DNA of 64,000 nt, from contig RQOL01000452.1 in NCBI GenBank assembly GCA_013076295.1, positions 124,001-188,000 of the forward strand, given 5' to 3'. Of this stretch, positions 8,569 through 52,781 are shown in pieces (position 1 is the stretch's first letter; each line of letters begins with the position of its first letter). The stretch is from Sanderia malayensis (lineage: Eukaryota; Cnidaria; Scyphozoa; Semaeostomeae; Pelagiidae). The translations under genes and the position numbers were made by a program. Below the pieces are notes generated by a model. The model did not search any database. It was not told the DNA's origin and was given only the letters and a program-made list of their open reading frames with translations.

Positions 8569-8602
<34 letters not shown>

Positions 8603-27530: not shown

Positions 27531-30500
27531 TGCACCATGCCGCGTAAGTCCAGGAAAAGTATAACGGGCGACAGACGTAGAAATCAAGTGCGGGAGAATG
27601 TGCAGCATAGGAGACAGATCAATCAACAGCTCCAACCTCAACAGACAGGAAATGCCGATAACGTACTTGCAGCAGTCAACGATCTTCAACAATTGCAGCT
27701 CGAAAACCGTCAGCTAGAAGCCCCTGAATATCAGCCATTTCCAGCACAGTATCCCATTCCACAGATACAGCCAATGGAGATGGACATGGAACCAGAGCTT
27801 CCCATTCAGAACCAAGAGCTTCCAGCAGCAGAACAGCCTGCAGACATCGAGATGCACGAAGCAGTTCCAGTACCCGATGAAAGTCAGATACCAGGACCCA
27901 TTGAAGATCAGCAAATGCAAGTTGACAACCCTGTCCCCGAGAACAATGAAGCTGAAAACCTCATCCCCTTCTCCCCATTACCACACCACTTGAATAAAAT
28001 GACCGGAACATGCATTCATTGTGGTGCAAAGTACTTCAAAGAAGAACTTAACTCCCGAAAACAATACAACAAGTGTTGTATGGGAGGTTTAATCACTCTG
28101 GATCAAATTGAACCACCTCCAAACAGTGTCATGCATTTGTACACTGGTGATACTGCCGAATCAAAGTATTTCTTAAAGCACTTCCGCCAATACAACTCAC
28201 TAATGGCCATGGCATCATGGAAGGCTAATATTGTACGTCATGCTAGAGCTGGACCACCAGTTATCACAATTCACGGAAAGGCATATCACATGACAGGTAA
28301 TTGATACAATATGATTCCAGTCATTATCAATATAACTTATTATTCATTTATGCTGGCTGCAGTTGAATTTCTATTTACATAACTTATGCTTTGCATCATT
28401 AACAGGTGTAACAGAGACAGACAGATCCAGAAAATACGCAGAACTTTACATCATGGATACGCAACAAGCATTGCAGGAACGGCAAAACACTGCAGGAGAA
28501 CAGCGTCTTGATTTGGACATTGTTGCACTTCTCCAGAATGAGTTAATGGCAGTCAATCGATTTGCACAACATTTTCGAAGCATGGGTGAAATATTGGAGG
28601 AACAGCGGCAGCAAGCTATTGCAAACAATCAGCCTGTTCCGACATTCAAAATGATCATAACAGGTCGCCCACAACAAGATCGCAGATACGATAATCCTAC
28701 TGCCAGAGAAATTGCAGCTATATACACAGTACAGAATGGAGGTGCACCGAATCCTGATGATAGAGAATTGCAGATACAAACAAGACGCGGAGATCTCATG
28801 AAGATTTACGCAACGAGTCCAATTGCCGATCCTCTCACGTATCCATTGATGTTCTTTCATGGTGACAGAGGTTACAGTTTGGACCTTCAACGATTGCCCA
28901 CAGCACACATAGCGGGTGAACACCACAACAATCGTAACCGTCGTACCAAACTAACCCTCTCCGAATACTATTTATACAGAATTCAGGTCAGGGATGCATT
29001 CTCAGCCATCCACATTGCATCACTTCTATTTCAACAGTATCTGGTAGATGCATATACGAAGATAGAAGGCAATAAACTGAGCTGGATTATGAACAATCAG
29101 CGTCAACTTCGCGTTGACACATACCGAGGCCTGATGGATCATCTAGGGCTAACAATCCGAATCAGCCCATACATATCAATGTTGGCCGTGTTATCATTCT
29201 ACCCTCAACATTTCCAGGCAGCCAAAGAAACATGTATCAACACTTTCAAGATGCAATGACAATCGTAAGGAAGTATGGCAAGCCAGACATGTTCCTCACA
29301 ATGACTGCCAATCCTAAATGGAAGGAGATAGAAGAAAACATTCATCCATATCAGGCGGCCAATGATCGACCGGACATTGTCACACGAGTATTTCAACTTA
29401 AACTCCAAGAACTACTCCAAGACATACTACACAACCACATTCTTGGACATGTCACAGCACATGTATATGTGATAGAATTTCAAAAGAGAGGACTACCACA
29501 CGCACACATGATCCTGTTTCTTTCACAAGCTGATAAACCACGAACACCACAACAGGTAATATCTACATACTTAGATAGAGAGATTGTAATAATTCTTACT
29601 CATATAATTATATTTAAAATCAAATGCAGAGTATGTCATGATGGACATGCGTTACAACTATTCTGTACATTATCTCAATAATAGTTGCTAATTATCATGT
29701 TCATTTTCAGGTAGATCAACTCATATCAGCAGAGATACCGGATCCACAGGATGCAAGATACCACAAGTTGGTCCTAAAACACATGACACATGGACCCTGT
29801 GGAAATTTAAATCCTCAGTCCGTGTGCATGGAAAATAACAAATGCAAAAAGCACTTTCCAAAGGAACCAGTTGCTGACACTCAAATCAATGTCAATGGCT
29901 ATCCTCTCTACAGACGGCGCTGTCGTCATCCAGTCAATGTGAATAATCGCATCTTGGATGATACTTGGGTAGTTCCACATAACAGACACCTACTCATCAA
30001 ATATCAGTGTCATATCAACGTGGAAATATGCAGTACAGTAAAAAGTGTCAAGTACATTTTCAAATATATTCACAAAGGACATGATATGGCACATGTTGAA
30101 ATTCTTGAAGAAAATCAACAGCAAGTACCTCAAGACATTGAACACGACGAGGTGCGCCAATACATCAACGCAAGATATATTGGACCACATGAAGCTGCCT
30201 ATCGGCTTATGCAGTTCCCCATGCACGACAAAAGCCACATAGTGAAACGGCTTTCTGTTCATCTACCATTTGAGCAACAAGTCATCTTTCATGACAATGA
30301 TGACGAACAAAGGCTCAACAACATTGGTGATAGAACAACACTTACAGCATGGTTTGAACTCAACCAGCAAGATCCAGCTGCACATCAGTACCTCTATCAT
30401 GAGGTACCAGAGCACTATGTCTTCCAGGAGCGTTCAAAAACATGGACTGCCAGACAAAGAAGAACAATGCCCATCATTGGTAGAATTAATCAAGTGCAGC

Positions 30501-33100
30501 CGAGACCTTGCGAGCAAAAGTTTGCACTCAGACTTTTGCTATTGCATACACGAGGAGCTACTTCATTTGAAGATCTTCGTACAGTGGAAGGTAATCTATG
30601 TGATTCCTTCAAAGATGCAGCATTAGCTCTAGGGCTACTAGAAGATGATGCCGAAGTCACACGTTGTCTTGAAGAAGCTGTCATCTTCAATATGCCTTCG
30701 CAACTCAGACAGTTTTTTGCATCATTGCTACTCTTTCAAACGCCATCAGACATCAGAACTCTCTTCAACGCCTTCAAAGAAGCAATGAGTGAAGACTTTG
30801 TCAGACGCGATCAACTCAACAATCCAGACATAACCTTCCAAGACAGACACATGTATCAATGTCTACATGATATTGACAACAATTTGAAAGTTCATGGTTT
30901 GTCCATCACGAACTACGATCATCTTCCTCAGCTACCGGCCGACTTTGTCATCCCAGAGCAAGGTGATTTACAACTTACCATGGTGATATTCACGGTAATA
31001 ACTTAGCCAATATATGATTCTATTTCTACCAAATTAACTATTGTTTATGTGTTCAGAGGAAGATCACATGGATGTTGAAAACGAAAGAGAGCAAGGAGAA
31101 CAAATGCGCGCTGCATTGAATCCAGAACAACAAGTGGTATACACAGCCATTATTCAAGCGATTGAAGCGCAATCAGAGCAGAGCTGTCACTTTCTCGACG
31201 GACCAGCCGGCACAGGGAAAACATTTCTCTACAACACGTTGGTTCGTAACCTTCATGCATCTGAGCACAAAGTTCAGTGTATGGCTTGGTCAGGAATTGC
31301 AGCTACACTGCTTATTGACGGCAGAACATCGCATTCACAATTCCAAATTCCAATACCATTGATGCTGGAATCAACATGCAATGTCAAGAGACAGAGCCGA
31401 AGAGCACAAGTGTTGCGTGAAACAACCCTGTTCATATGGGATGAAGCTTCAATGATACCAGCATTGGCATTACAAGCAGTTGACAGACTGCTTCGGGATA
31501 TCACAAGAGTTGAAAAGCCATTTGGTGGCAAATTCATGTTGCTTGGTGGCGATTTCAGACAAGTTCTACCTGTTGTCCCCAAAGCAGGAAGAGAGAAAAT
31601 CGTATCAGAGAGTCTTAAATCATATCAAATCAGTGATTTGTGGGCACAGTTTCAACAACATCGCCTGCACACAAACATGAGAGCTGTTCAAGATGAATCT
31701 TACAGAGAATTCTCAGAATGGCTCCTAAGACTCGGCAATAAACAAGAACCACATGATGCACTTGACAATATCACTTTGCCACATCAAATATGCACATCTT
31801 CGCAAGAGGAAATGCTCAACTTCATATATCCCCAGCCTAATACACCACAGTCGCGCCTGATGCTGGATCCGGTAACCATGTCAGAACGTTGTTGTCTTAC
31901 CCCAAAGAATGATTTCTCACATCAAATCAATGACATCATTCTGGAAAGACTACAAACTGCTGACAGAACATACTACAGCACAGACAGTGTAATAACAGAG
32001 AATCCAGATGAGGAGGCGGCATATCCAATTGAGTTTCTCAACAATCTAACTCCTAACGGAATGCCATTACATCGACTTAGACTCAAGGTATAATTTACCT
32101 ATATGTACTAATTATACATTAATTCTACACTTATTTTAAATATTGATAATGGTCCTCCGATGATACACATTGTAACCCCAAGCTTTCCTTATTTAAGGTT
32201 GGTGCAACAATCATTCTTCTGAGGAATCTAAATCCAAAGAAAGGTCTTTGTAACGGCACAAGACTCATTGTACGCCATCTCCGACGTAACGTGATCACAG
32301 CAGAGATCATCACGAAGGAACACAGAGGCCAACAGGTCATGATTCCCAGAATAACATTGTCAACACAGGACAGTGAGATGCCGTTCAACATCAAGCGACG
32401 GCAATTTCCTGTCAGACTAGCATACTGCCTTACTATCAACAAGGCACAGGGACAATCTGTCAGGTATGTTGGTTTGTATTTACCAGAGCCCGTGTTCACA
32501 CATGGTCAGTTATATGTGGCCATGTCAAGAGCAACATCATTTGACGGGCTCAAAGTATTCCTCCCAGAGGAAACACACAGGAAGACAAAAAACATTGTCT
32601 TCCAAGAAGTCCTGTAAAGGTCTTCACAAACGTTTGAGCATAAATTGCGTTGCTCACAGAGGGTGTCAGTCTACCAAAATGCACATACACAAAATACGGG
32701 GCTCAGATTGTGGTTCTAGCGGATCGGCATTGCACTACAGTGTGATGTTCCCTGTTGTGCTATCAGCACAACACTCAGAAAGCAAAGCCGTAAAAAGCTT
32801 TGAACATTGCTGGTTTGCCACGCCACTCCAGTCAATAAGATTCGCCAAGAACGATCCGGACACTTTCAAAACACTCCAGTGTCCGGGGGTGTTCGCCAAC
32901 AGCAACAACACGATCTGGGTCCTCGGTGGCACCCGTATCAGAAGAGATATGCTTTGCCATGCTCTCCGATATTGCCTATGGGAGTATGGCTTTCCTTTTC
33001 TCTGTGAAAACTGCAATCTCTCCATTAACGGTAGCTGTTTTAACAATAATTGGCATTGGATTACCCTCCTCTCAACCAATTAACTCATTTACTTATTCAT
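27000..33100 (+). mobile_element. Helitron (canonical Rep/Hel type)
   Basis: The element is defined by the Rep/helicase gene. Terminal TC and CTRR ends with a 3' hairpin were not located with confidence, so the limits given are only indicative. It lacks the OTU, endonuclease and RPA parts of the second rolling-circle element at 36-54 kb, and lies on the opposite strand. The two therefore belong to different lineages. Confidence 0.6.
27537..32617 (+). CDS. Helitron Rep/helicase transposase, intron-containing, one frameshift
   Basis: Likely exons are 27537-28296, 28406-29555, 29711-~30967, ~31053-32087 and 32198-32617, with GT-AG borders in matching phase. Order of parts: a low-complexity Gln/Pro/Glu N-terminus; a Cys pair region (CIHCGAKY); a Helitron-like N-terminal region; the HUH Rep domain (HUH as GLPHAHMILF, paired tyrosines as YIFKYIHKG); and a PIF1-type SF1B helicase (Walker A DGPAGTGKTFL, Walker B FIWDEASM, GGDFRQVLPVV, then TINKAQGQS and YVAMSRATS). 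It nicks element DNA and unwinds it for rolling-circle transposition. One lesion is clear: near 29130-29180 the frame must shift to reach GRVIILPSTFPGS. Otherwise it is complete at ~1,550 aa. The first start in good context is 27537. Confidence 0.93.
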
Positions 33101-34849: not shown

Positions 34850-35690
34850 AATGGACAGACAGATAGACAGGCGAGCCCAGTGAGCTAACCCATTGTACGT
34901 GGGGTTGAAAGAGGCATGAGCGAAGCGAGTGCAGCGCACGAAGTGCGCCCTATCAGTCAATGTTTCTTGATAATAGATAGACAGGCGAGCATAGCGAGCT
35001 AACCCATTGTATGTGGGGTTGAAAGAGGGATGAGCGAAGCGAATGCAGCGCACGAAGTGCGCCCTATCAGTCAATGTTTCTTGATAATAGATAGACAGGC
35101 GAGCGTAGCGAGCTAACCCATTGTACGTGGGGTTGGAAGAGGCATGAGCGAAGCGAATGCAGCGCACGAAGTGCGCCCTATCAGTCAATGTTTCTTGATA
35201 ATAGATAGACAGGCGAGCGCAGCGAGCTAACCCATTGTACGTGGGGTTGAAAGAGGCATGAGCGAAGCGAATGCAGCGCACGAAGTGCGCCCTATCACTC
35301 AATGTTTCTTGATAATAGAGAGACAGGCGAGCGTAGCGAGCTAACCCATGGTACGTGGGGTTGAAAGAGGCATGAGCGAAGCGAATGCAGCGCACGAGGT
35401 GCGCCCTATCAGTCAATGTTTCTTGATAATAGATAGACAGGCGAGCGCAGCGAGGTAACCCATTGTAAGTGGGGTTGAAAGAGGCATGAGCGAAGCGAAT
35501 GCAGTGCGCCAACCATAGGCGAGCGCAGCGAGCTCACGCATTGTAACTGGGGTTGAAAGGGGCATGAGCGTGAGCGAGTGCAGCGCACGAAGTGCGCCAA
35601 GTACAGGCGAGCGTAGCGAGCTAATCCATCGGAAGGGGGGTAGAAAGGGAGTAGGAGATGAAATAGGCGTCCTAGGACACCCATGCGCAG
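34850..35690 (+). repeat. satellite array, copy 4
   Basis: About seven units of the same family as at 1.9, 8.8 and 22.6 kb. Most have the CATGAGCGAAGCGAATGC core and the CTATCAGTCAATG spacer. The last units (35460-35690) switch to the short form without the spacer. The unit length keeps one minus-strand frame open for 230 codons, which I read as a by-product of periodicity. Confidence 0.9.
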
Positions 35691-36356: not shown

Positions 36357-37802
36357 TCATTTCATCAATGCAAGTTTTGAATCTGTGTCACAACAGTCAG
36401 CTGGGAAAATCTGTGTCACAACTTTCTTGTTTTTGTTGTATGTGATCTGTGTATTTTGAACTTCCAACATGAAATCTTCAATGGAATCAATATCACTTGC
36501 GAGCGTAACTGTGGTTCCTAGTGATAACAGCTGTGAAAGTGGTTCTGTGAACAATGCAAGCCATATGAGGTTTCCATCACCATCCTGTATTTGTATCTGG
36601 CACGAGGCATCTCGTTTACAATCACGTGTACGTTGACTTGTGTTGCAATGCATGCATTTGACTTTGTGTTTGCTGTAATCTGTTATCTTCTTTCCACAAG
36701 TCTGGCATGCAAGGAAAATAGCCAGCTTTCTCACCAAATTAATTTCTTTTACAACAATTGAGCAGTTGGGATCTTGCAACAATGACTGCCCCTGCACCTC
36801 TTGAACCTGTTGTTCTTCTTCTTTGAATGTGGTATCTGTAGTGTTGCACAGGTGGAAAGTGCCTTTGAAGCACTTAACTGAGAGATCCGTAAAAAGATAC
36901 GTTTTTCCAGAGATCAGTTGATCGAATAGTGGCTCCCAAACATGGAACTCTGCAGTACCCGTCTTATCTTCTAATACTAAATCTTCTTTGATGTTGATTG
37001 TTTGTGAACTTGAACGGAGCTTAACTTCTTTTGGTTCCATGTTACCAAATGAGCATGTTGCAATTATATTAACGCGTTGGTTTGATGACTGCCCGTGGAT
37101 CATATCCAAGGTGATGGTTGTGGCAGGCTGGCGATGGTCTGAAGCAATAGGCAATGATGATGTTGTTGCATAATCGAAATCTATGTCGAACTTTGGTAAG
37201 AGCGACGCCAAGGATTCTTGGTTAAAGATGATGGCGCTTGTGTCATCATTGCTGTCATCGTACTTGAGATTCTTTAACATAACAGAACTTTTACATTCTT
37301 GGAGTTCTTTAAGCTGCTTATGCGCAGAGGTGTTATAACCTACTACACGTAGTACCTTTGAAGGGCTTGTTTGTAGTGAAAAGGTGTAAAAAGGGTAATC
37401 ACGCTTTGATCTCTTTATATCCCCAACAGAATGAACATACCATTTTTCTAAGAATGGAAATAAAACAATTATAAGTAGTTCGCATTGCAGAAATCTTCAA
37501 AAAACAGTGATTAAAATTGGAGATAAAAAACGTTTACATAAATAATTCCTCATGATAATTGAAACAGAAAACAACAGGAAAGTATGCTTGAATAAAATGC
37601 ATTGTTATAACTAGTTGTGAATTGCTGCCACTAAAATCAAAAATGAATTAGGCACACAAATTAATGACAGCCAGATGTAACACAACATTATAAGAGGTGA
37701 GCATAAACACATATTGGTGAGAAAACTTACCAATTGTATTTGCTGTTTTTTCTTCTGCCATAACATCAATGATGTTACTGTTACAACAGTAGGTGCACGC
37801 TG
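36357..37802 (-). CDS. RPA-like single-strand DNA-binding protein (Helentron)
   Basis: The long exon, 37447-36357, joins an upstream exon, 37802-37731 (donor GTAAGT, acceptor CATTCTTAG), in phase. It encodes OB-fold-like segments (WYVHSVGDIKRSKRDYPFY; EVKLRSSSQTINIKEDLVL) and a four-Cys zinc module (CQTCGKKI, then CMHC) followed by a C-terminal OB-like region, as in the large RPA subunit. RPA-like genes accompany rolling-circle elements and probably protect their single-stranded intermediates. An upstream start exon was not found; the protein may be spliced onto the preceding Rep/helicase/endonuclease polyprotein. Confidence 0.75.
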
Positions 37803-37910
37803 CTGTAAATAAAAATAATGGATATATAAAAATCTGTATTTAAACTTGCACACCACGAAGATAAAAATAACCTTTCATACAATATTACAGATTTATGAAT
37901 TAAAAATCGT

Positions 37911-38774
37911 TCATAAACATGTGAATATAGGCTTGTGATCAGAGAAATAGGATTCTAGTGCTCCCGAAATAATAGAGTTTTCAGCTATATTTGTATACAC
38001 ATGATCAAGTAAACTTTTGTAATCTGTAGTATAGTCTTCTATTATCTGGGAATATCCTCTATCGTGCATGAGTTGAAGTATTGTTCTTTTTTCATTGGAG
38101 TCTTTTAACAGATCAATATTGAAATCACCAAAGATGATGGAAGGATTTGTGGAAGTAATGTTGTCACAAATACTTTCCAATGCATCTGTCAACTGTTGAA
38201 AATGAATCCTTGAAGATCTATACAATGCAACTATACGCAGATTTTGACTTGGGTGATGGAGAACCAATGAAGTTACTTCTATTCCACTGATATTGAAGTT
38301 ATGAGGTGGTGTTAAGCATTTACTGATATAAGTATTTCTGATGTAAACTACTGTTCCATATGTGGAGCGCAAAGAATGCTCATCATCAAATCTGTATTGT
38401 GCAAAATTTTCAAGCTTGTAAGATTTCTTGTTATCGTTTCTCAAGGCAGTTTCAACAAATAGATTAATATGTGCAGCATTAACATTAATATCACAGGATA
38501 TATCAGCAAAATGATGCTTCAAAGACCTCACATTATGAAAAAGAATCTTTAGTGGCAAATTATTATCACATAGATATTTGATGTTTTCAGTCACTTTGCA
38601 GGAGGATCTTAAGCGTACCATTTCTGACTGCACTTTCGAACTGACTGCAATTTTTGATTCATTGAAATTGGTTATGTACAATTTTGATAAGTTTCTGACC
38701 CTACTCAAAGCAACATAATGTATGTGTTCCCTGGCAGTGCCTTTGAAATCAACAACCAATTCGTTTAAGGTATC
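37911..38774 (-). CDS. helicase C-terminus fused to EEP (AP-like) endonuclease
   Basis: The first ~25 residues (LNELVVDFKG, HIHYVALSRVRNLSKLYI) are the final PIF1-family helicase motif, cut off from the rest by the nested transposon at 38775. After a linker comes an exonuclease-endonuclease-phosphatase domain: ILFHNVRSLKHH, the catalytic Glu in LFVETALR, GDFNIDLL, SLLDHVYTN and the terminal YFSDHKPIF. All catalytic positions seem present. Helentrons carry such an endonuclease, thought to have come from a LINE. The domain ends at about 37911; the RPA-like exons follow on the same strand. Confidence 0.88.
   Translation of the reverse strand, partial: DTLNELVVDFKGTAREHIHYVALSRVRNLSKLYITNFNESKIAVSSKVQSEMVRLRSSCKVTENIKYLCDNNLPLKILFHNVRSLKHHFADISCDINVNAAHINLFVETALRNDNKKSYKLENFAQYRFDDEHSLRSTYGTVVYIRNTYISKCLTPPHNFNISGIEVTSLVLHHPSQNLRIVALYRSSRIHFQQLTDALESICDNITSTNPSIIFGDFNIDLLKDSNEKRTILQLMHDRGYSQIIEDYTTDYKSLLDHVYTNIAENSIISGALESYFSDHKPIFTCL
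38769..38774. other. left 6-bp target-site duplication, GGTATC
   Basis: GGTATC directly precedes the left inverted repeat (TATGGAATCACATGATG) and recurs at 45293-45298. Keeping a single copy makes the Helentron helicase continuous across the insertion point, in frame, through the motif AKTVHRCQGDT then LNELVV. Confidence 0.95.
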
Positions 38775-39195
38775 TATGGAATCACATGATGAACAAAATT
38801 ATAAGTCCACATTCATGTCATATTTCTCAATCCACGTCTCATGTTTTTGTCTTTTTCACGTCGATTTTTCCATGTTTCATGTCATTGTCCCCAGTTCACA
38901 GTGATTTCAAGTAATAATAATATGTGTTGTGATTATTGTGCCATCACATCTGTTGGTACGTATTGTTCCCTTTCATTTCACGTCGTCAATCATTTGCTGA
39001 TCCGACATTTCACGTCGTGAATCACTGGAAGCAATCAAAGAATCAAAACCATCTTACGATCATGGGTTGTGATTCATCTGGGGGTTAGGTAACAATATCT
39101 AATATGGCTGCACCAGAGGAAACTGCTCAGCAAACAAATCATATTCTCTGCTGTGATAAGGGATGTGACCACATGTGACTAAAAAACTTAGAGCA

Positions 39196-41815
39196 ATGGC
39201 TGAACAACGTCAACCGGAACCTGAAAACGCTGCAGCTTCTGTTGCAGAAATTCTTAGAACGGCTTTGAGAAGCATAGAAGGGATTGAACCTTCTTCAACT
39301 TCGGTTACCAATGGACTTAGTAGGTTTGTTGCAACGCCTAGACCAGATTTTGGACCAAGACCGCTTACAACAAACCGACAAATGCTGGATAACAATAGGC
39401 CTAGGCCTAGTACTGGACCATCATCATCAGAAGCAGCACGTCGTGACTTCAGGTACTTACTTATTTTCATAATTAATCATGCAAGAATTTTAAATCCAAC
39501 AATGAAATAACAAATAATAAATGCTGCACCTGATATATATTTCAAGAGAAGTGAAAAACTCCCAGGGTGGATTCCAAAGTTACCCACACCAGATAGGTAT
39601 CTGCTGTGGATAAGCAAAACATCTTTTGGAATATTTTGTGATATTCCACTCTGAACATGATAGATTTAAAATTAAATAGACCATTTCTTTTAAGGCATAT
39701 ATTCAAGTTTGTTGGCATAATTTGGCATGGGCATTCTTGCTAATCAATTTTTTTTTATGTTCAAAAATTTGTTCAGAATTTTGCTTTTATGTTCTTCACA
39801 GGAATGCTTTTCCAAGCCTGGCAGCTGGTGGTAAGAGACCAAGCAATCCTCTGGCCAAGAAGCAAAAACGAATGTTTATTCCTCCAAAGGAAATCTGGAC
39901 AAGAGATTTTGTTTGTCTTGCTAAAAGCTCAACATCTTTTGTTCCAACGTTTTTACAACTGACAGAGTTGAATGCTGCAGAACTGGGAAAGAGAAAAGTC
40001 AAGTTTCCATCACAAAATTTGGATCACAGCAAAGTAAAAGAAGTTCTTGAAGGTGTTTACCCTAAATTAGAAAGTCAGAATGGAGCTTTTGAGCTCCTAA
40101 GAGCTCAGCGGGGTGGAATGAATAGCCCCCTAGCTGTTATTCCCATGTCTGCTAAAGGGTATTCTTTGGAATACATCAAAGAAAATGTCTCGAACAACTC
40201 TGTAATTTATATAAGACCCATACAAAGTGATTTATCTATGTCTAAATGCAGCCCCAGTGATGAATTTGGATTGACCACTAACTGTCATCGATGCAGCACT
40301 GAGGTGGCCCTGAGCTCATTAAGAGAACATTTAATTAATTGCAGTCCAGGGGATGCATTGCTTGAGTGCAGCACAACACCAAAAAACTGCAGCTCTGTGT
40401 CAGCAGCCACCTCTTCAAAGAAAGAGCACATAAATGAGATTGAAAAAAATTGGAAACAGCAGCTGAAGTTGGTGTGTTCAAATGCATCTGATGAAACAAT
40501 AAATGATGTAATTTTGGTGTCTGATTCATTGGATGAAGCAGCTAACAGATTAATGGACAGAATTAGCCAGACCTCTGCCACCTCTGCCAGTTTACTTCCT
40601 TCATCAACATTTGCTGATGAAAAATCAGATACAGGTCTTACCAGCTCCATCTGGAGGCCATATAGTTTAAACTCATTCATCTGCCAGTATGCCACGGACA
40701 CACTGCAGAATGGCTACGAAGAAGTTAAAATAGACAGAGAGTCAATATGGTCTGATACATTGAAATTTTATAAATGCAGAATGTGTGATTCATCAGGATT
40801 GGCAAGAACCCTAGAAGTTACATTTGATGGAGAGGAAGGCATTGATGGTGGTGCTTTGCGTTCAGAATTTTTTCAACTTGCTTTGGCTGAGGCAACAAAC
40901 AGAGTTTTTGAAGGGGCTCCATGCAATCTTGTCCCCATAAAAGATGCCACAAAGTTCACGCTATTCCGCATAGTTGGCATGTTGATGGTTCATGTGATCA
41001 TTCAGCAGGGACCAGTGGATAGTATTCCAAGTTTAGCACCTAGTATTGTTGGTGTACTGCTGGATGATGACAAAGAGGATGTTTCCAAGCACTTGTCAAA
41101 ACACCACATTCCATTAAATGCACAAACCGAACATGTTCATGACTTTATTGAGAATTTGGATAATTGCAAATCAAATTCTGATGTGGAAAAACTACTCTAC
41201 GAGCATGAACAAAAAGATGTTTTTTGGCAAATAAATAACAATTCACATTGGCCAATGACACAGGTGATAAAAGCACACAACAAAAGTTTGCTGTTGCAAG
41301 AAATAATTTACAATGAAATTGTTGGAACTCGTTATGAAGAAATAAAGCAATTATCAGCTGGTTTGGAAACTGCAGGGTTTTTGAAATTTGGAAGGAAACA
41401 TCAAGCTTATTTTCGAAAACTAATGACCTTCGATAAGGAGGGTTATCAACCTTTCGGGTTGGAGGAGTTCAAGCAGCAGGTAAGCACTGATGCCAAATCC
41501 TATGCAGAGAAACAAGCCTTTGAATGGTTACTAGAATACGTGCAAATTACAGAGCAACAAGAAGAATTTTTTGGGGGTTCAAGGATGAGTGCACTTTTAA
41601 TGTTCTGTACTGGTAAGCAGAAGCCCCCAAAAGATGGGATTAACTCAAAAATCGAAGTGAAATATCTTCCTGATGATGATGAGCATGCTCTTCCAATAGC
41701 ACATGCCTGCTTGAAGATTATACAGATACCTACAGTACATTCCAAGAAATCAAAGTTCTTTCAGTCTGTGGATGCTGCTCTAAAGCATGGTGCTTTGGGA
41801 TTTGGTATACCGTAG
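39196..41815 (+). CDS. HECT-domain E3 ubiquitin ligase (transposon cargo, G2E3-like)
   Basis: Exon 1, 39196-39452 (donor GTACTT), joins exon 2, 39802-41815 (acceptor TTCTTCACAG), exactly in phase: 2,271 nt, ~756 aa. Parts: a disordered N-terminus; a Cys/His pair region (CHRCSTEVALSSLREHLINC); a CUE/UBA-like helix set (NASDETINDVILVSDSLDEAANRL) that may bind ubiquitin; and a C-terminal HECT domain starting near LEVTFDGEEGIDGGALRSEFF. Its active-site Cys is kept near the end (LPIAHACLKIIQIP). HECT ligases pass ubiquitin from E2 through this Cys to substrates. The gene shares an element with a transposase, so it may act on host factors controlling transposition; that role is inference. A short optional exon may lie at 39548-39594. 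Confidence 0.87.
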
Positions 41816-41989
41816 TGAAAAGTTTCTACAGTAAGTCATTCCTACCGGTGGTCAACAATTGCTTCTTTGGGTGCTTTGCTGGACTGTTTACAGGTTTAAA
41901 ATAACTTTCAATCAGTTTGTTCATGTTATGATTTCAATCAGTTTGTTTATGTTCTATCAGTTTGTTTATGTTAAGTTTTTATTACTAGC

Positions 41990-42912
41990 TGTTAACATTG
42001 TTAAAATGAGTGCTGCTGTGATGTGAAACGAATAATCAGGACTAAAGCATCTAGCATTTGATTAAGAGATATGTTTTGAAATGAGTGCCTGCAAAAAATA
42101 TGGACAGGGGGTGTTTAGCGTGCTTGGAAGCGCTGTCATGTGTATTGACAATTTGTTATTGACATTTACGTTTCGTAGCTGGATTTTGGAATTTCAGCAA
42201 TAATAGATTTTAGGAAATTATTCTATCAAGAGAAGGTGTGCGCTCAGTTTGAAGATCGAAGATAAAATTCAAATCTTTGTTGATATGACTTTACAATGTA
42301 AACAAAACAATACCAAAAACAGGGGAATAAATGTAGAAAACCCCAGATTAAAAAGAAAACTAAATTAAATGCACATCAACAATTTGAAATCTGAAGTCAG
42401 GATTTTCTGGACCGGGATTACTTTCAATATCTCCTGCTAAAAACAATAAAATACATAATGATGGTGAAAATGATGACACAATAGTTTTGGGAGCCTACTA
42501 TCTATACTTCCGCACAGCTTTTCTCTTCCACTTGCAGGCATTCATTTTTGTCAACTTATCCCCACGACAAGAAAGCAACTCCTGTGTTCTTGTCGAAATA
42601 AAATTGGCCTCTTTTGGGCCTTCTCGATTCTGGCTACGAATAAAAGTTAATAGCCAGCAGATAAGCCAACCAAATATCGTTTTCCCAATGTTTCTAAAAC
42701 GACTCGCTGCCCTGCAGCAAAAAGATGACCGCCATTGATGAATTGATAATAACCAGCATGCGGCTAAATGGAGGAGGATTTGAGGCCACGCGCAGGCTAA
42801 AATCCGACAAACAAACACACATATTCACAGACAGATTTTTTCTCGAGAAGGACTCGATTATATTCTGCTGCGCAGCCGCTTCACTTCGTTCCGCTACGCA
42901 GCAGCAATAAAA
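41990..42912 (-). repeat. repeat A/B, copy B, with canonical 2A-like motif
   Basis: About 920 bp matching 20092-21022 (both begin CTAGCTGTTAACATTG and end CGCTACGCAGCAGC). It lies between the HECT and transposase genes of the IS3EU-like element. The minus strand at 42408-42434 encodes GDIESNPGP, a full 2A ribosome-skipping consensus, preceded by a hydrophobic run as in copy A. The upstream basic segment (MNACKWKRKAVRKY) is in a different frame in this copy. Confidence 0.8.
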
Positions 42913-43460
42913 GATTTTGTTAATGTTAATGAGTTTGTAGTATTATCAGGTGAGCTTCAAATAATTTGAACAAGGTATACGATTTCATGCAGAGTACTAA
43001 TACATTTTTAGCAAGAAACTGTCTATAAGAAACCCCTATGAAACTTAATACTAGGATTTCTTGGAAATTCCATTCAATTATAATTTTGATTTCATCAACA
43101 TTATAATTAACATACAACATGATGTTTTGAAGTGACAGTGTGCCTTGTTATTTCATAATACAGCTTGCCTCGAAGCAAAGAAAAGCAACTAGATATATAA
43201 GCTAAATACCACTTTTTTTTAATATGGCAATCAGATTTTTGGTATTTTTATTGTTATGTTCGATAGTTCATACAGTATCTTGTAGCTATGTAACAAATTT
43301 GTTTTTTTTTTTTTGAAGGCAATTAACTAAGCCTGACGGTATTTAGCAAATACTTCTTCAGCGAAATAGAGGAATAGTGAAATAAAGAAATAGCGTGATA
43401 GACAAATAGAACAATGCTTAAAAAGGGGGAGTCGTAATAAGGGGGGGGGGGGGGGGTTCA
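42913..43460. other. intergenic region of the transposon with G-tract
   Basis: AT-rich spacer between repeat copy B and the transposase stop. It contains a T-run near 43300 and a 16-base G-run at about 43440-43456. Both genes of the element probably terminate here because they converge. Confidence 0.5.
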
Positions 43461-44963
43461 TCATACTGCGTTCATATCCAGTCTATGCACATATTCACGA
43501 ATACGGAGATACAGATCAATGCCATTAGAATTTGAATCTTCGAGGGGATCTACGACCATTTGAAATTCATGTTGCAGGTTTGCTGCAAAATGCCCGCTAA
43601 GACTGGGAATTTCGACAACTTCATCTTGAGAGTAAATGTTATTGTATCTTGCTGAAGGCAACGGTCCTTCCCAATCAACACCTAACAGGCTCAAGTTATC
43701 CACATACATATAATCCATTAGCTGGCTCCCTTGCATTCCTTGTACCCATAACTGAATAGGTGTCAAATTAGACTCACTCCGCAAAGGGTGGTTGTCATAA
43801 CCATCCCAAAATAACGAAAGATGTCTGTTTATTCTTGGCAGGAAAATGTATTCCAAACAGCAAAGATCAATTTCGCTATCAATTATAAGATGGCCATTTT
43901 CTTCCAAGAAAGAAAATATATGATAAAACAAGAACAAACATCCATGAAATAAATCCCTCCAGAAACGTTCTATCCTTTGGTTGTGGCAGCTTTTTCCAGA
44001 GATAAAGCTGCCCCGGGATGGTCCACGAAGTGGATGGTTAAACATAAAAGAGGCCACATCCACATTTTCAACGCCTTGGTCTCCACGTACCCTTGAGGGA
44101 AGCCCATACTTATTTGTAGCCTCAAGGAAACACTCTAAAACAGTGGAAGCTTTATTGTTTGTGGAGCATCGCAAGTACATAATCCTGCGCGAATAACCAT
44201 CCACACAGCCGTGAATGACAAATCTCCACCTGATCAATTTATGGTTGCCATCAATGTGCCACAACGCAAGACTACCAGGAACAGAATAACGGCGTCGGTG
44301 AACCACATTGATCTGCGTTGAACGTAAAAGTAGCCCATCCGGATCAACTGACCACATTGCATGGCGTACTCGTCTCCACTGCACTCGAAAACCCCGTGCC
44401 CCCAAGAAACCTTTCATTCTTCTAATACCACAGTTTGGAAAGTCTTTGAAAACATTTGCAACAATTTCATTCAGCTGCTCATCAGAAATTTCGGAATATT
44501 CCTTTCTTTCTCCCTCCAGGCCATACTGGAGAATTCTTCTCCGGACAGTTCTGGCACTTACCCCGAGCATTTCAGCAATTTGTGTGTTACTGAAAGCACA
44601 TCGAAGTAACATGCTTAAAGTTTCCTTTGGTACAGAAAAGGAGGGCCTACCCACACTTCCAGTTATAATAACCACAGGGGTATGGTGCTCCTGCTTATCA
44701 ATTTCATCTAATAAAATGTTGTATGCCAAAATCAAAGCTTGAACTGTTTCTTCTTGGATAAAATTGTCGTTAGGCCATATCTCCAAACACTGAGCACAAA
44801 GATGCACCAGCCGCTGCAGTTTGTAGGTGACATAATCAAATACATCAGAAACAGAAGATTCATTTGTCAATGCTTCATGTTCAAGCTTTCTAATTGTTTG
44901 CCTAAGTGAAGCACTAATGTGTTCTTTGAAATTTTGCTGAGCAGTTTCCTCTGGTGCAGCCAT
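43461..44963 (-). CDS. DDE/integrase-core transposase (IS3EU-like)
   Basis: Intact 500-aa ORF. A predicted helix-turn-helix lies at ~residues 120-150 ([21 protein letters not shown]). The integrase (rve) core follows: first Asp in [10 protein letters not shown], second Asp in RGDQGVENV, Glu in [11 protein letters not shown], with 36 residues between the second Asp and the Glu. The RIERFWRD and [10 protein letters not shown] signatures recur in invertebrate 'integrase core domain' transposases. The start codon lies inside the right inverted repeat, so the first ~10 residues are also encoded, in mirror orientation, at 39102 in the left repeat. It should cut at the inverted repeats and insert with 6-bp stagger. 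No stop or frameshift is seen. Confidence 0.88.
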
Positions 44964-45292
44964 ATTGGATATTGTTACCTAACCCCCAGATGAATCACAA
45001 CCCATGATCGTAAGATGGTTTTGATTCTTTGATTGCTTCCAGTGATTCACGACGTGAAATGTCGGATCAGCAAATGATTGACGACGTGAAATGAAAGGGA
45101 ACAATACGTACCAACAGATGTGATGGCACAATAATCACAACACATATTATTATTACTTGAAATCACTGTGAACTGGGGACAATGACATGAAACATGGAAA
45201 AATCGACGTGAAAAAGACAAAAACATGAGACGTGGATTGAGAAATATGACATGAATGTGGACTTGTAATTTTGTCCATCATGTGATTCCATA
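44933..45292. repeat. right 360-bp terminal inverted repeat
   Basis: Reverse complement of 38775-39134 with few differences. It contains paired CACGTCGT/ACGACGTG motifs (45046 and 45082 on this side), possible transposase or promoter sites, and the start of the transposase gene. The duplication GGTATC follows at 45293-45298. Confidence 0.93.
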
Positions 45293-45298
45293 GGTATC

Positions 45299-47375
45299 AC
45301 CCTGACAGCGGTGCACTGTCTTTGCAGAGGCCTGTCGCAATGGGAACTGTCTTCTTATAATCTTAACTTGAGAATTTTTTGATATTGCAAACTGGCGAGA
45401 AATTTCAATAATTGGTGTCCAATTATTTGCTGTTGCAGTTGTAAAAAGATGTTGGTATTTCCTTCTACATTCCCTGCCAATGTCTTTCTTCTGAAACTCA
45501 ACCCATACAATACTGGGTCTTGAAGATGTTACAATTCTGTAATCAATCTTGTGAACAACACATTCAGCTCAATTTGTCATCCCATCAGTAGTTGCAATGT
45601 TCCCTGTCAAATCATATTTACCTGCTTCAATTAATGGCAATAAAGAAAAAAGTCCCATTGTTTTCTTTGGATCAGTTGGAATTTTTTGTTTAATTTTTTG
45701 TTCCTCATCATCAGAGATACCTCCAATCACAATGTTGATTGCCTTAACAACAATCTTGTTGTATTTTGATGTTTCATAAACTGAATCATTATGGTTGTTT
45801 ACCATGGCATTTGTGAAGAATAAATGTGTTACATTATTCAAGTGATACATTGGTGGTAGCATTCTGGACTTAACAACATTTATATCACTCTGTGTATGGT
45901 GACCTTCCCTTAGACGGTTCAGAAGATTTGCAAATTGTGCATCTTCTTTTTGTCTCATGACTTCAGTTAGCTCATACATACAAAATTGATGCTGCCATTG
46001 GTTGGGAATAATAGGTGCATAAGGTATTTTACCAGTGTCAAAAATCCATCTGTCCATTACAGGTTGAAGTTGAAAAAGATCTCCAACAGCTATGATACTA
46101 ATACCTCCAAATGGTTGTTGGGATCCCATTATTTGCTGCAGTCGCATGTCAAGAAAGTTAAACATACCATTTCCTACCATTGATATTTCATCAATAAAAA
46201 CTAATTTTAGCGATCTAAATTTCATTCTCATAGTGTTAAGTGTGTCACTATTGAGAGGAATGTAATGAAATCCTTGACTTGCTGGAACAGCAAAAGCAGA
46301 ATGCACTGTATGTCCTTTGATATTGAATGCAGCCTTTCCTGTTGGTGCAACTTTCAAAACTTTTATGGTGTCAGGGTCTTCTCCAGCAAGACCATTTAAA
46401 TATTTGGACACTGCTTCATACATTGCATTTAGTAACCAACTTTTTCCAACACCTGCACCGCCACTTAAAAATAATGTCAGTGGCTGCTCACTAACTTTAA
46501 TGCTGTGGAGAACGTGGTAAAAAAATCGGATCTGCTCTGTGTTCAATGACTGCATAAGCTTTCTAAACTCGTTTTCATTCATTGAGTTAGATGTCAAAGC
46601 CTGTTCTTCACAACTTCTTGGAAATATTCCAATGTCATCTATGATATCATATTGGGAATGTGCACCTGACCCTGGAGAAAAACAGTCAAATGAGCCATGC
46701 TCCTGAAATAATTCATTGCTATCTGCACCATTTGAATGTTGTGAATTTGGAGCAACACTACCATGGCATTTATCAGTTTGTTGAATCATTTCCTCTGATA
46801 AACAATGAAGTATGGATGAATGTTTTTCATAATTTTTGCTATTTTCAATAACCAACACTTCTGCTTCATTATAGCGTTCTTCGTATGTGTGGCACCCAAG
46901 GATAATGTCATTTTCTTCATCTCTCCATGGCAAATATAACACCAACTGTTCTCTGTAAAAATTTTCTGAGTCAACTTTTTTGTTAAAGCGAACAGAACGA
47001 ATTATCCTTGGCGTCTTCCGTTTGAGTAGCTTTAGGTTCCCTTTAGTTGCAATGGAATAGTCAAGCTCTGTATCATCTTTAAATGAATCAAGATCATCTG
47101 CAGAGTCATCATCAATGCTAGTTTCTGGAAGAAAAGGTAATTTGACCTTGTTTCTATTTGCATTGATTCTTGTTTTGCTGTGTGGTTTGCAGGTATACCA
47201 TGCCACAAAATCAGCAAGACATGTATCCTCCAAAAAATGTGGCCTTCTTTGATATCTTTTCAGGAGGTTATCGGATTCAATATCCAATGAGTTGTCAGGC
47301 AATTCATTAAGTTTAATAGAAGACTTCAACAAAAAACATCGTTCACTTGGTTCTGAAGTATTTATAAACTGAACT
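45299..47375 (-). pseudogene. PIF1-type helicase domain of the Helentron
   Basis: The frame reads from about 47375 (QFINTSEPSERCFLL, reached by a frameshift from the Rep ORF) to 45569. It then continues after a single TGA without further stops to the transposon boundary at 45299. Motifs: Walker A (LSGGAGVGKSWLL), Walker B (KLVFIDEISMVG), motif III (IIAVGDLFQLQPV), an Arg-rich motif IV (TEVMRQKEDAQF), and at the end AKTVHRCQGDT, completed by LNELVV beyond the nested element. It would unwind DNA during rolling-circle transposition. The TGA at 45569-45571 and the insertion inactivate it. Confidence 0.9.
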
Positions 47376-48096
47376 GCCGAGAGGAGCGTTTTAATGGTAA
47401 TTGCAGCACATGATAAACAGCTTCCTGAGCACTGACTTCAACTGCATTGAGAAACTTATTGCCAATGTGTCTGACCTGATTAATAATTGTAGTATCTCCA
47501 CTTCTAGCCTGTTCACATGCTCGTTCAAGAAGCTTGCTCATGCCCCTTTGCCCCTTAGTAATATAGGCCAAGATATAAGCAGCACATGCGTATGGATCAA
47601 GAACATATTGTAAATCAAGATTTGCCATCCAAGCTTTTAAGATATTTGGATTATAGCTATTTATGCGTATTTCACTGGGTGTTCGCCTAAAACACAATGT
47701 TTCCCTCTTCAGCATAAATCTGACTGCTAGTATATATTGTGTGTCTGTGAAATTTAACAAATCCAAAAATTGTTGAAAAGAAATATTCAATCCATATTTC
47801 ATATCATTCAGAACTGATTGCAGCTTTGATGCATTTTCCTTAATTTTCTGGAGATCTTCATTGCTAAATTCTGAAACATCAATTGGTTTAAGCAAAACAG
47901 TTTCTTGCATTGGAGGTACAGGAAAACTAAAACGGCAAATGTCTTTCCCCTTCTTTCTACATGATTTTGCATGCCTATGGGTTTGCAAGTTCAAAAGATC
48001 TTCATCAATATTCTTGTCATTAGCACTGCAGGTTACATACTGATCAACAAAGCTGATGATATTTTTGCACAGGATCTTTGCCATATTCAGGTGCAT
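47362..48096 (-). pseudogene. Helentron Rep domain, second half (tyrosine motif)
   Basis: About 244 residues that follow the HUH ORF after a frameshift near 48085. Conserved features: CSANDKNIDEDLLNLQTHRHAKSCRKKG (His/Cys pattern) and PCAAYILAYITKG-like pairing, here DPYACAAYILAYITKGQRG with the Y-x3-Y-x2-K nuclease signature of HUH Reps. At the 3' end the frame is lost at about 47370 and the helicase continues in another frame. Confidence 0.85.
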
Positions 48097-49196
48097 CCTT
48101 TATCCACAGCAAAACATGTATATGAGGTGAACCACGTTGCTGAAACTCAACACGATAAAAATAATCTTGAATCTCTCCAAGAGGCATTTCCTTACTTTTT
48201 AAAAAATTGTTGAAAAACAACTGCACCATATGATCAAAATTCCTTGCACAGGATACTGGGTCTTTTTGGATCAAATCTGATTTTTCTTGCCATGTCATAT
48301 TTTCAACATCACTATCTGTGAGATCCTTGTTTTCTAAAAGTCTTCCCAAAATTTTCAGCAAATGTTTCCATCTTGTTTCTGCTGCAGAAAGAGAGCAAAA
48401 CCATGTTGGTTTTCCAAGCTGTCTGATCATTGCAAATAAGTCCTTTTTACATTTTTCAAAATATGGTGGTGAACCCCGTATGTTGCGTAGAACTCTAAAT
48501 CCTTCATTCAAGTGAATTATGCTATTTTGTGCACTCTGAGATTTTAGATCACCTGCTGTGTATTTCTTCCCTTTTGTCTTACATTTACGCAATGATAGTG
48601 CTGCAGTATCTTGAATCCTTTTTATTTGCAATTTTTTTAATTTGAAAAAAATGTTAGGAACACATTGAGCAACCCTCCTGTCTTTACTGCGAAGCTCCCA
48701 TTTACATATTGTACTATAATGTACTGCAACCATTCTTTCATGGTTTTCATACCTGCGCTGTCCACAAAATAAAGTTGGAAAAGATAAATATTCTGCATCT
48801 TTGTCAATAAATAATCCTAAAGGCTTACTTGCTTCGCCTGGTGCTAAATTTATGATATGGTCAGCAATCTGCAAAGGTTCAGGTGACTCTAACAATGTAT
48901 CCATATTTGCAGCAACTCTTTCTTCTGTCTCACACCACATATCATTTCCTTCATTTTCAAGAGTTTTGTTATCTGAATTGCAATGAGAAACCTTATTTTT
49001 ATGTCTTCTTCACCTTGCTCCATTCTTCCTTTATTTGTTCCTGAAAATCCTCACAAAGAAAACTTGACAAATCCGATTGAGGCAATGATGAGAAATTGTC
49101 TAACCAACCAGGGCATATTTGTACACCTTGAGATCTAAACAGCTCACTGGTTCTGGTAAGATATTCAGCTGCCATAAAAACCCTAGTTGATCTTAT
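48044..49196 (-). pseudogene. Helentron Rep domain, first half (HUH motif)
   Basis: After the ISL2EU-like insert the Helentron frame resumes at 49196 (IRSTRVFMAAEYLTRTSELF). It is lost by a single-base shift near 49008 and continues to 48044. The HUH motif is VEFQQRGSPHIHVLLW. Other conserved Rep patches are WCSLSAAETRW-like (PTWFCSLSAAETRWKHLL) and YLSFPTLFCGQ. The Rep nicks the element's end and forms a covalent DNA-tyrosine link. Frameshifts near 49008 and 48085 make this copy inactive. Confidence 0.88.
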
Positions 49197-49336: not shown

Positions 49337-50942
49337 ATGCCGCTTACCTGTGCTGCCTATGGATGTACTAATCATAACAAGATGGAAAATAAACCAGGAT
49401 TTTTTAGATTTCCAAATAATGACCCAGAGTTGCGACAAAAATGGATAAATGCCTGTAAAAGAAAGAACGTTGATGGCAGTCCATGGTGCCCCAAAGGAAA
49501 AAATGTATGCATCTGCGGACATCATTTTGTTACTGGTAAGTTATCAGGTTCGATTTCAAACATATTAATGATTCATATTAATGATGATATTTAGCAAAAC
49601 AGTTCTGCAGCCTATATAAAATGAGCAAATCTGTTTATTAACAGTACAATTTTTCACAGGTCAACCTAATCGGAAAGACCGAAGTCATCCAGACCATGTA
49701 CCATCTTTGTTCATATACGTTCAAAGTAATCCAGAAAACAGAAAGAAAAGTTGAACGTTTCAACTCAGCTCAGAAAAGAAGAAAAATCAACAATGAGAGC
49801 ATCGCTGCAAGGAGCCAATTACCACAGAAGCCATAGCTGAGAACTCTTCAGCTGAAAAGGTGGCAGAGGAAGACTTGCCAGTCAATGTGGCACCTGAAAG
49901 TTCACATGAAGTAGAAATATCTGAACTGATGTTTGAAATGAATAACTTGAGGAGGAGAGAGATAAGGCTCTAGCAATGATTCAAGATGCTAAAAAGAGAT
50001 TTCTGTCATATGACAGCTTGAAGTTAAGGTCTGAAGACAAGTTCACAGTATTACACAGGATTAACATCAGCAACACTTGATATTTTGTTCAGTTTCCTAG
50101 AACACTCATTACCTGACAAAAGTCGCAGCAAAATGCATTTCAAAGATCAGCTCTTGATGACATTGGTAAAACTTCGTTTAGACATTCAGTTTGAAAACCT
50201 GGGTGATCAATTTAATTGCCCAAAAAGCAGTGCCCATGATATTTTTAAGCGATGGATACACTTAATGTATTACAAACTGAAATTCTTGATTAAATCACCA
50301 GATCATGATGCTTCAAGAGAAACATTGCCACATGTATTTGCTCAGTACTTCCCCAGATTGACACATATAATTGACTGCACAGAAATTTTTATTGACAGAC
50401 CAAAAAATCTTAAAGCCCGCGCTCAAGTATACTCCAACTATAAGAAGCATTCAACAGTCAAATTCTTCATTGCTTGCACTCCTCTTGGGGCTATTTCTTT
50501 TATTTCAAAAGCATGGGGTGGAAGAGTTTCTGATGTGGAACTTGTAAAAAATAGTGGGTTCATCAGTTATAAGTACCACACTGTTGGTGATCAAGTTTTA
50601 GCAGACCGAGGGTTCACTCTTGTTGATGAGTTTGCCGCAGGGTGTGGAGTTGAACTAATCACTCCAAGTTTTACTAAAGGTAAAAAGCAGCTGTCAGCCA
50701 GAGAAGTGGAAACTTCGCGACAAATTGCATCCATTAGAATTCATATTGAAAGAGTGATTGGTTTGGTAAAGAACAGATATAGAATTTTGGATGGGACTCT
50801 TTCAACTACGCTGGTCAAGTCTTTATCAGATGAAGCAAATGAACTGGATGTTTCAGGAATAGATAGACTCTTTACAGTGTGTGCAGCTCTGTGTAATTTA
50901 AGTACTGGTATTGTGTACAATGAGGATAAAAATAAAGCATAA
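49337..50942 (+). pseudogene. THAP-DDE transposase (ISL2EU-like), frame-broken
   Basis: Exon 1 (49337-49533, donor GTAAGT) starts MPLTCAAYGCTNHNK and carries a THAP zinc finger (CAAYGC, RFPNNDPELRQKWINACKR, CGHHF). Exon 2, from about 49661 (acceptor TTCACAG), completes THAP with HPDHVPSLF. The frame then breaks at about 49752. The catalytic part, 50085-50942, is open: THIIDCTEIFIDRP (Asp), YHTVGDQVLADRGF (Asp) and RIHIERVIGLVKNRY (Glu), the DDE_Tnp_4 pattern. It binds transposon ends by THAP and cuts by DDE. Two or more frameshifts at 49.75-50.05 kb inactivate this copy unless extra introns exist. Confidence 0.88.
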
Positions 50943-50999: not shown

Positions 51000-52781
51000 T
51001 CATTTCTTTTTTCTGCAGTCTGGACAGTACCAGGATTTCTTTGGAACTCTCTTCATTTTGACACAAGACAAATGGAACCATTCAAATTTACAATTGGCTG
51101 AATCACAGCCAATCCATTTTTCATTACTGTCACCCTCTTTCCTTTGGCAGTAACAATATAGTTTTTCATCAATAAGTTTGAAGCCAGTGTCACTAGAAGC
51201 CCTTTCACTTTCTCTGGTTAAAAGCTCAGGAACAACATATCTTCTATAAAACTTTGCCAATACAGGAACTGATGATTTTATGAATTCATCATCCACACAA
51301 ACTGTGGTCCAGAAACACCATTTGGGGGTCCATACAACAAAATCACATTCTTTTTCCTGACAAATGTGCAATTGCATTTGTACTTGTGTGTAGTACTTGT
51401 GCCCTGTTTTAAGTTTCTTATCTTCTGACAGGCAGAAAGAAGGATCTTGTAAAGCTTCCTCTACAGACTGTGTTTCTCTTTTTGAGTATGGGCATTTTAC
51501 TTCAATAAGTTTGGTAATGTTATGGCATTTGCATTTAAAAATACCATCAGGTGAAGCACCAATGAAAGGCATTTCTCTGCTAATGACAAAGCCAGATGGA
51601 CATATTTGGAAATTGTCATGCGAGGTGGCTAGGATCATTTCAAAATCTTTCAAGGCATTTTTTTCATTGATGGTCCCCCAATTTAGGGCTGGGACAGAAG
51701 TTGAGGTCATATTTGGTTCTTTACAAATACCTTTGATAATTGACTGTGCTGGCTTTTCAAAATTTGTGTGCAATACTAAGTGAGCTCCTGATGCAGTTAT
51801 TCGTCCAGTTCTCACTTGATGCCAAAATATGCTCTTTGACTGCCTTCTAGTTATACTTTCAACATATTCAATGTCAGCTTGAGTTACTTTCATTAATTTA
51901 ATTAACTCCACCCCAAAATGTTGCAGTTCAATGTCAGTCTTCTGAGCATTCTCTGCAGAATAAAATTCTCTGAGATATATGGGCATCTTGCCCCTTTTTG
52001 GAGGATGGAAAGTCGGTACAAAACTTTTGTAGTGCTCAGAAAATGTATGTAAGACGACTGGTTTGGATGCCTGTTGCTGTAGCCGGTGAAGAAATTCATG
52101 CTGCTCATTTTCTGTAGTTTCGATCATTATTCCAGGAAATGCTGTTGCAGACCTCTTATGGCTATTTGCATCATATCGGTCTACAGCTGCCTGTGAATAA
52201 AATTTCATTTTGGAAATCTCTGCAGGCTCAATTTTTTTAATAAAATCGACATTCCATTTGCATGCTTCCTCGGTACATGTTTTTCTGGTGAAACTAGAGC
52301 AAACAGCTGCCTCCACTTTAAAAAGTAAGGCCGCTATATGTGAACAAGATTCACCTAGGCCAGCCATACACGAACAATGGGCTGTAAGTACGGAAGCTTC
52401 ATTTATTAAAAGTGCAACCCATGCCTCGTGTGGTTCTTCATTCAACCTTTGGGATGGTGTTACTTCGGCTTTAAGCACCATGAACTGCGACTTCTCGTGC
52501 TTCTTGTAGGCATAAATTGTCCTAACCCAACCGCTGATGAACTGGTTATAAGCTTCCAAGCTTTTTCTGTTTTTCATTGCCTCTCTTGTAAAAACACCTG
52601 GGGTTTCAACAAGATAACTATACACTTCTGGCCACTCTAAAGGAGGCCAGCAAGTAGGGTCATTCATCCAAATATCTGCTGGTATCATGTACGGGCATAC
52701 ATCAATTTCGATCATCTTTAATTTACTCACATAACGCTGTTTTGCTTCTCCATCCAACGATTTGATGTTGTATGATGCCAT
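51000..52781 (-). CDS. YqaJ-type nuclease protein with SWIM and PHD fingers
   Basis: Intact 593-aa ORF. Residues ~135-160 form a SWIM zinc finger (CSCMAGLGESCSHIAALLF). Residues ~315-500 form a YqaJ/lambda-exonuclease-like domain: RTGRITASGAHL, NWGTINEKNAL, the catalytic Asp in FIGASPDGIF and the EVK triad in LIEVKCPYS, then QVQMQLHICQ. Residues ~545-590 are a PHD finger (CYCQRKEGD, WIGCDSANCKFEWFHLSCV, WYCPDC). It shares the ISL2EU-like element with the transposase on the opposite strand, and is thought to assist end processing or repair. SWIM and PHD could tether it to chromatin. No lesion seen. Confidence 0.9.
   Translation of the reverse strand: MASYNIKSLDGEAKQRYVSKLKMIEIDVCPYMIPADIWMNDPTCWPPLEWPEVYSYLVETPGVFTREAMKNRKSLEAYNQFISGWVRTIYAYKKHEKSQFMVLKAEVTPSQRLNEEPHEAWVALLINEASVLTAHCSCMAGLGESCSHIAALLFKVEAAVCSSFTRKTCTEEACKWNVDFIKKIEPAEISKMKFYSQAAVDRYDANSHKRSATAFPGIMIETTENEQHEFLHRLQQQASKPVVLHTFSEHYKSFVPTFHPPKRGKMPIYLREFYSAENAQKTDIELQHFGVELIKLMKVTQADIEYVESITRRQSKSIFWHQVRTGRITASGAHLVLHTNFEKPAQSIIKGICKEPNMTSTSVPALNWGTINEKNALKDFEMILATSHDNFQICPSGFVISREMPFIGASPDGIFKCKCHNITKLIEVKCPYSKRETQSVEEALQDPSFCLSEDKKLKTGHKYYTQVQMQLHICQEKECDFVVWTPKWCFWTTVCVDDEFIKSSVPVLAKFYRRYVVPELLTRESERASSDTGFKLIDEKLYCYCQRKEGDSNEKWIGCDSANCKFEWFHLSCVKMKRVPKKSWYCPDCRKKK

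Follow-up and report, generated by a model that had tools for sequence, protein, structure and literature searches.

Transposons of the IS3EU/GingerRoot type have TA..TA ends, usually a 6-bp target-site duplication, and an integrase-type DDE transposase without an HHCC finger (PMC10045372). In the text of that paper the term HECT has 0 occurrences, whereas each element examined here carries a HECT gene. We analysed a 64,000-nucleotide stretch of the genome of the scyphozoan Sanderia malayensis (assembly GCA_013076295.1, contig RQOL01000452.1, positions 124,001 to 188,000), hereafter the window. It contains a complete transposon, assigned below to IS3EU/GingerRoot, in which the transposase gene is paired with a convergent gene for a HECT-type ubiquitin ligase.

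The IS3EU elements of fungi that bear alpha-kinase and TET/JBP genes have TAYGG..CCRTA ends and a 6-bp duplication; in the TET-bearing families, as in the Sanderia element, a second enzyme gene lies in opposite orientation to the transposase, and it is an alpha-kinase (plus a TET dioxygenase) and not a ubiquitin ligase (PMC12730594). Cellular HECT E3 ligases, for example AREL1, UBE3A and SMURF2, share the HECT fold and catalytic Cys with the element protein, but are ∼12–17% identical to it in structure alignments and have a different N-terminal part. VANC is a sequence-specific anti-silencing protein, and Ulp1, in Ulp1-type elements, is a SUMO protease. The VANC-bearing transposons are comparable in that a non-transposase gene is reported to counter silencing; neither accessory protein is known to be an E3 ligase. 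No report of HECT in IS3EU was found in the literature searched, and Repbase may record it.

The initial annotation of this DNA described ∼360-bp inverted repeats and a 6-bp duplication in one 6.5-kb unit, together with an intact DDE transposase and an intact HECT ligase with its active-site Cys, and each of these features is borne out (Table 1). A repeat search of the window gave arms at 38771–39134 and 44933–45296 (364 nt, 99% complementary); the terminal inverted repeats of the element proper are ∼360 bp, with ends TATGG..CCATA matching the fungal TET-family pattern given above, and GGTATC occurs on both sides. Among 14 aligned transposases no conserved His/Cys set (HHCC finger) was found upstream of the core, while D238, D295 and E332 are invariant, with 36 residues between the last two. 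By its ends, duplication and transposase the element is classed as IS3EU/GingerRoot. The D, D and E residues are kept in 22/22 transposase copies of a larger alignment (21 loci plus the window, the haplotig L031 being left out), and aligned transposases are 34–56% identical to the window copy. Several helix-turn-helix matches lie just upstream of the core, all below the Pfam cut-off. At locus L027 a frame at 8569–9423 (−) resembles the N-terminal helix-turn-helix part of the transposase there, separated from it by an intron or break.

The insertion target was a Helitron on the minus strand. When the flanks are joined with one copy of the duplication, a 377-aa open Helitron frame runs across the empty site, the remaining two frames at the junction being open for only 21 aa. 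This host Helitron (36357–48940, −) adjoins an open reading frame (ORF) at 36357–37280 with a weak RPA-C match below cut-off, and the reading frame of its PIF1 is interrupted by a stop after 45569.

Table 1. Coordinates of the transposon, its two genes and the Helitron into which it is inserted (positions in the window)
Feature	Position	Strand	Remarks
Whole transposon	38775..45292		6,518 bp, complete; starts TATGGAATCACATGAT, ends ATCATGTGATTCCATA
Left target-site duplication	38769..38774	not assigned	GGTATC
Left terminal inverted repeat	38775..39134	+	begins TATGGAATCACA
HECT gene exon 1	39196..39452	+	ATG start; splice sites, EukProt gene model P0001
HECT gene intron	39453..39801	+	349 bp, GT..AG
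HECT gene exon 2	39802..41815	+	predicted spliced product 756 aa
Predicted ubiquitin-like (beta-grasp) domain	39893..40219	+	
Zinc finger C-x2-C-x11-H-x3-C	40283..40342	+	UBZ4-like spacing; PF18574 (zf_C2HC_14) E 1.1e-4, below cut-off
Predicted three-helix CUE/UBA-like region	40418..40591	+	structure prediction, block pLDDT (predicted local distance difference test) 46-79
HECT domain match	40952..41809	+	PF00632 E 1e-12; PDB profile and fold matches
HECT active-site Cys codon	41708..41710	+	TGC
DDE transposase, 500 aa	43461..44963	-	PF24764 rva_4 integrase core, E 5.9e-78 (Pfam)
Transposase catalytic codons	D 44250-44252, D 44079-44081, E 43968-43970	-	
Right terminal inverted repeat	44933..45292	-	overlaps first transposase codons
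Right target-site duplication	45293..45298	not assigned	GGTATC
Endonuclease part of host Helitron	37911-38759	-	domain match
PIF1 of host Helitron	45569-47332	-	domain match
Helitron_like_N of host Helitron	48044-48940	-	domain match

The two genes of the element are tail-to-tail, with gene ends 1.6 kb apart. Model P0001 has 421 residues, of which the first 393 agree with the predicted HECT product; a start at the mechanical ORF (39722–41815) is unlikely, since an exon beginning at ATG 39196 splices at 39452/39802. The HECT domain is recognised by both sequence and fold, with the catalytic Cys in the C-lobe, and this Cys is present in 20/22 aligned HECT copies; we infer that the element HECT has ligase activity. 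Ahead of this domain, three further parts are predicted in the window ligase: a ubiquitin-like domain, a finger with UBZ4-type spacing (C-x2-C-x11-H-x3-C, as in RAD18-type fingers) and a CUE-like region of three helices, for which no family match was found. The inverted repeats extend into the transposase start (39104–39134 and 44933–44963), so that the left copy, next to HECT, duplicates the ten codons with which the transposase begins. Promoter copies of one kind may therefore drive both genes.

A search for further copies of the 360-bp repeat, proposed in the initial annotation, did return matches (seven in the 184-Mb genome), but no second independent full copy. Both repeats were found on just one further contig, C850, which is 99.6% identical including the flanks and lacks the right tip; it was rejected as an independent copy, being the same insertion on another haplotig. 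Single pieces of the repeat are present on contigs C734 and C731, and C876 has a truncated copy. As there is only one complete insertion for this repeat (on two haplotigs), the presence of HECT was tested across the wider superfamily.

A search of the genome with the rva_4 profile gave 150 scored matches of 572 candidates, from which 28 regions were fetched: 20 picked solely on transposase score (the 21 best matches minus the window), two chosen for the absence of a nearby Pfam HECT, and six comprising every still-unpaired match that was free of internal stops and had an open frame of 450 aa or longer. In 28/28 of these IS3EU regions a HECT frame lies 3′ of the transposase and convergent with it, including all six intact-transposase loci that had been unpaired in simple searches. 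These loci support the view that HECT is a regular cargo gene which descends together with the transposase; a full copy lacking HECT, which would have told against it, was found at none of them. The 28 loci are not all independent, since L031 (the C850 haplotig) is counted among them and L019 and L020 share a flank.

Divergent loci were checked with a HECT profile rebuilt without them. Each locus of the five divergent groups (L022/L027, L017, L030/L034, L026 and L036/L037) was recovered, with a best E-value per locus of 5e-9 to 6e-74 among 2,385 frames. A Pfam check, which covered fetched loci other than L045, placed HECT above cut-off at L022, L024, L026, L027, L034, L042, L044, L046 and L047 and below it at L017, L030 and L043. 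Most remaining loci are among the genome-wide Pfam HECT matches; L025 is absent there and depends on the profile (2.6e-49).

The same arrangement prevails genome-wide among the matches listed, to which all counts out of 150 refer. With the Pfam HECT list alone, a HECT lies no more than 4 kb away from 40/150 transposase matches, where 0.9 would be expected; the HECT is on the opposite strand in 40/40 and on the 3′ side in 39/40. Adding two protein searches raises the number with a convergent 3′ HECT within 5.5 kb to 59/150 (a count that includes the window and its haplotig; ∼0.6 expected per arrangement), and a same-strand 3′ HECT was found at 0/150. No HECT match was registered at 86/150; 11 of these 86 are in the fetched set, and HECT was present in 11/11.

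The HECT gene moves with the element. Among 23 loci (22 fetched plus the window), one TATGG repeat pair with a perfect 6-bp duplication encloses both genes in 12, and duplications of 5 of 6 bases occur in three more; the pair of ends and duplication was undetected in eight, and at L022 the repeat matches poorly (25 of 40). Three near-identical pairs carry HECT (L020/L021, 99.4%; L016/L033, 97.6%; L028/L029, 99.5%), and as the members of each pair match only inside the element, they inserted separately and brought HECT along. These data leave hardly any room for the notion that HECT and transposase are two separate mobile elements often inserting side by side. Their reading frames are indeed separate genes, and element nesting is seen at L016, but a single TATGG pair with its duplication encloses both, and near-identical copies at different sites hold both. 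The nesting itself places a HECT-bearing element within a TACGG-ended unit that has a second transposase fragment (L016, 990–8436 and 1355–6705).

The two genes have also diverged together. HECT distances are correlated with transposase distances across 17 non-redundant families (Mantel r 0.596; P 1e-4, which is as low as this test can go), and groups common to both trees include window/L032/L023, L016/L033/L018/L024/L025 and L022/L027. The initial annotation envisaged one capture followed by vertical descent; the co-inheritance is supported by this correlation, but the single capture is not, host HECTs falling among those of elements in the tree. Its further question, whether the HECTs group with host genes, receives a divided answer. 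Distances favour the elements: the nearest element HECT differs at 46–77% of positions, while host HECTs differ at 80–92% in three partial samples and at 71–89% in a fourth (C-lobe only), and in 17/17 families all four partial host samples are more distant than the nearest element HECT. The tree mixes in the host sequences, on long branches and with weak support, one pair standing beside L022/L027 at 68.

Among the window, L032 and L023 the proportion of synonymous sites that differ (pS) in HECT is 0.79–0.84 (saturated) versus 0.34–0.43 for nonsynonymous sites (pN); transposase pN is 0.30–0.33, not far from that of HECT. This pattern indicates that HECT is under purifying selection. We accordingly regard as very improbable the proposal that HECT is a functionless passenger captured from host genes. 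Several fetched copies do have broken HECT frames, the tree does not reveal a single capture, and some elements, GingerRoot among them, capture gene fragments. Set against this are the occurrence of HECT in 28/28 loci although aligned transposases have diverged as far as stated above, pN far below pS, and the retained Cys in 20/22 copies.

The analysis establishes that the element is structurally complete, that its two genes move together and have diverged in step, that HECT is under purifying selection and that catalytic residues are conserved. The presence of this kind of partner gene in the related elements examined in this genome suggests that the enzyme serves a function in the element. 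The explanation that we rather favour is an IS3EU/GingerRoot lineage with a lasting transposase and convergent HECT pair, whose ligase would be active and act on host proteins; our leaning covers this explanation as a whole, and mostly its first part, the two-gene pair. A ligase manipulating host protein turnover, repair or silencing, as first proposed for this locus, is plausible from the predicted domains. Because the predicted modules would bind ubiquitin, the leading, still tentative idea on targets is that the ligase acts on host proteins of chromatin, repair or silencing that carry ubiquitin marks. Steered by its ubiquitin-binding parts, an active ligase would modify such proteins near the place where the element is excised or inserted, or on the element itself, and the outcome would be help for transposition or escape from silencing.

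Alternatively the ligase may target the element's own machinery, ubiquitinating the transposase to limit its dose, or to remove it from the strand-transfer complex and let host repair complete the insertion. The constant pairing at the fetched loci and the correlated divergence fit a partner that recognises its own transposase, and as both genes are transcribed inward from the ends, co-expression would be possible; however, the finger and CUE-like part suggest substrates that are already ubiquitin-marked, and we consider this alternative rather unlikely.

Several observations weigh against a lasting two-gene pair with a ligase directed at host proteins. At L036 and L037 Pfam detects no HECT, and the gene is recognised there by the profile of other elements. 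HECT occurs only in another arrangement at 5/150 transposase matches, 75/150 scored matches are without a HECT match and outside the fetched set, and 150 of the 572 candidates were scored. The ubiquitin-like and CUE assignments are weak predictions. The exact UBZ4-type spacing is found in the window, L016, L018, L023, L025, L028, L029, L032, L034, L042 and P0002–P0004, and was not found in the other scanned sequences, including the long frames of L017, L019–L021, L026, L036 and L046; the finger being missing from several long frames, the architecture is not uniform. The HECT tree is poorly resolved at depth and does not separate element from host HECTs, and L030 is in conflict, its transposase grouping with L017 at 100 and its HECT with L034 at 97; exchange or repeated capture is therefore possible. 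In close pairs, which have few changes, the ratio of nonsynonymous to synonymous rates (dN/dS) is 0.3–0.6 for HECT and, where defined, 0.7–1.15 for the transposase. Three of four sponge-associated contigs (short, interrupted or cut), described next, gave no HECT; in one of them, L038, ∼1.1 kb of sequence beyond the transposase holds none.

Transposase relatives are widespread, with 1,404 proteins among 7,993 candidates scored; the 120 listed include names from corals, sea anemones, jellyfish, hydrozoans, sponges, a hemichordate and a fungus. Four contigs from metagenome-assembled genomes of sponge symbionts were checked and are presumably sponge DNA; one of them, L039 (Iophon sample), has a transposase and a convergent HECT with an HTC motif. 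For animals in general we find it evenly balanced whether IS3EU elements are obligate two-gene systems in which HECT assists transposition or counters silencing as a cofactor, the convergent second-gene position of the superfamily being occupied by regulatory enzymes that differ between kingdoms (alpha-kinase in fungi, ubiquitin ligase here). Ubiquitin signalling would then be a built-in weapon of a DNA transposon.

A ubiquitin ligase maintained by selection through deeply divergent transposon families would provide a clear example of a DNA transposon encoding its own handle on host protein turnover. Some of the HECT-like genes in such genomes would then be transposon cargo, which bears on annotation and on reconstructing the evolution of the HECT family. 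According to PMC2837046 the family of the vertebrate HECT gene G2E3 is of late appearance, and genes of this kind might conceivably derive from element HECTs. The element also raises the question of which protein, of the host or of the element, has to be ubiquitinated before an integrase-type transposon can move or keep its expression.

The window holds other features of note. A second Helitron-like element lies at 28363–32093 (+), on the strand opposite to the host Helitron, with Helitron_like_N and PIF1 helicase matches. Other ORFs encode a DDE_Tnp_4 transposase (50085–50942, +), a YqaJ-like recombinase with a weak PHD finger (51000–52781, −) and an Endonuclease_7 (57167–58525, +). GC-rich tandem arrays occur at 8971–10269, 22559–22964 and 34861–35504, with periods of 203, 114 and 114 bp; the three have in common the motif GGCGAGCGCAGCGAGCTAAC...GGCATGAGCG..GCGAATGCAGCGCACGAAGTGCGCC.

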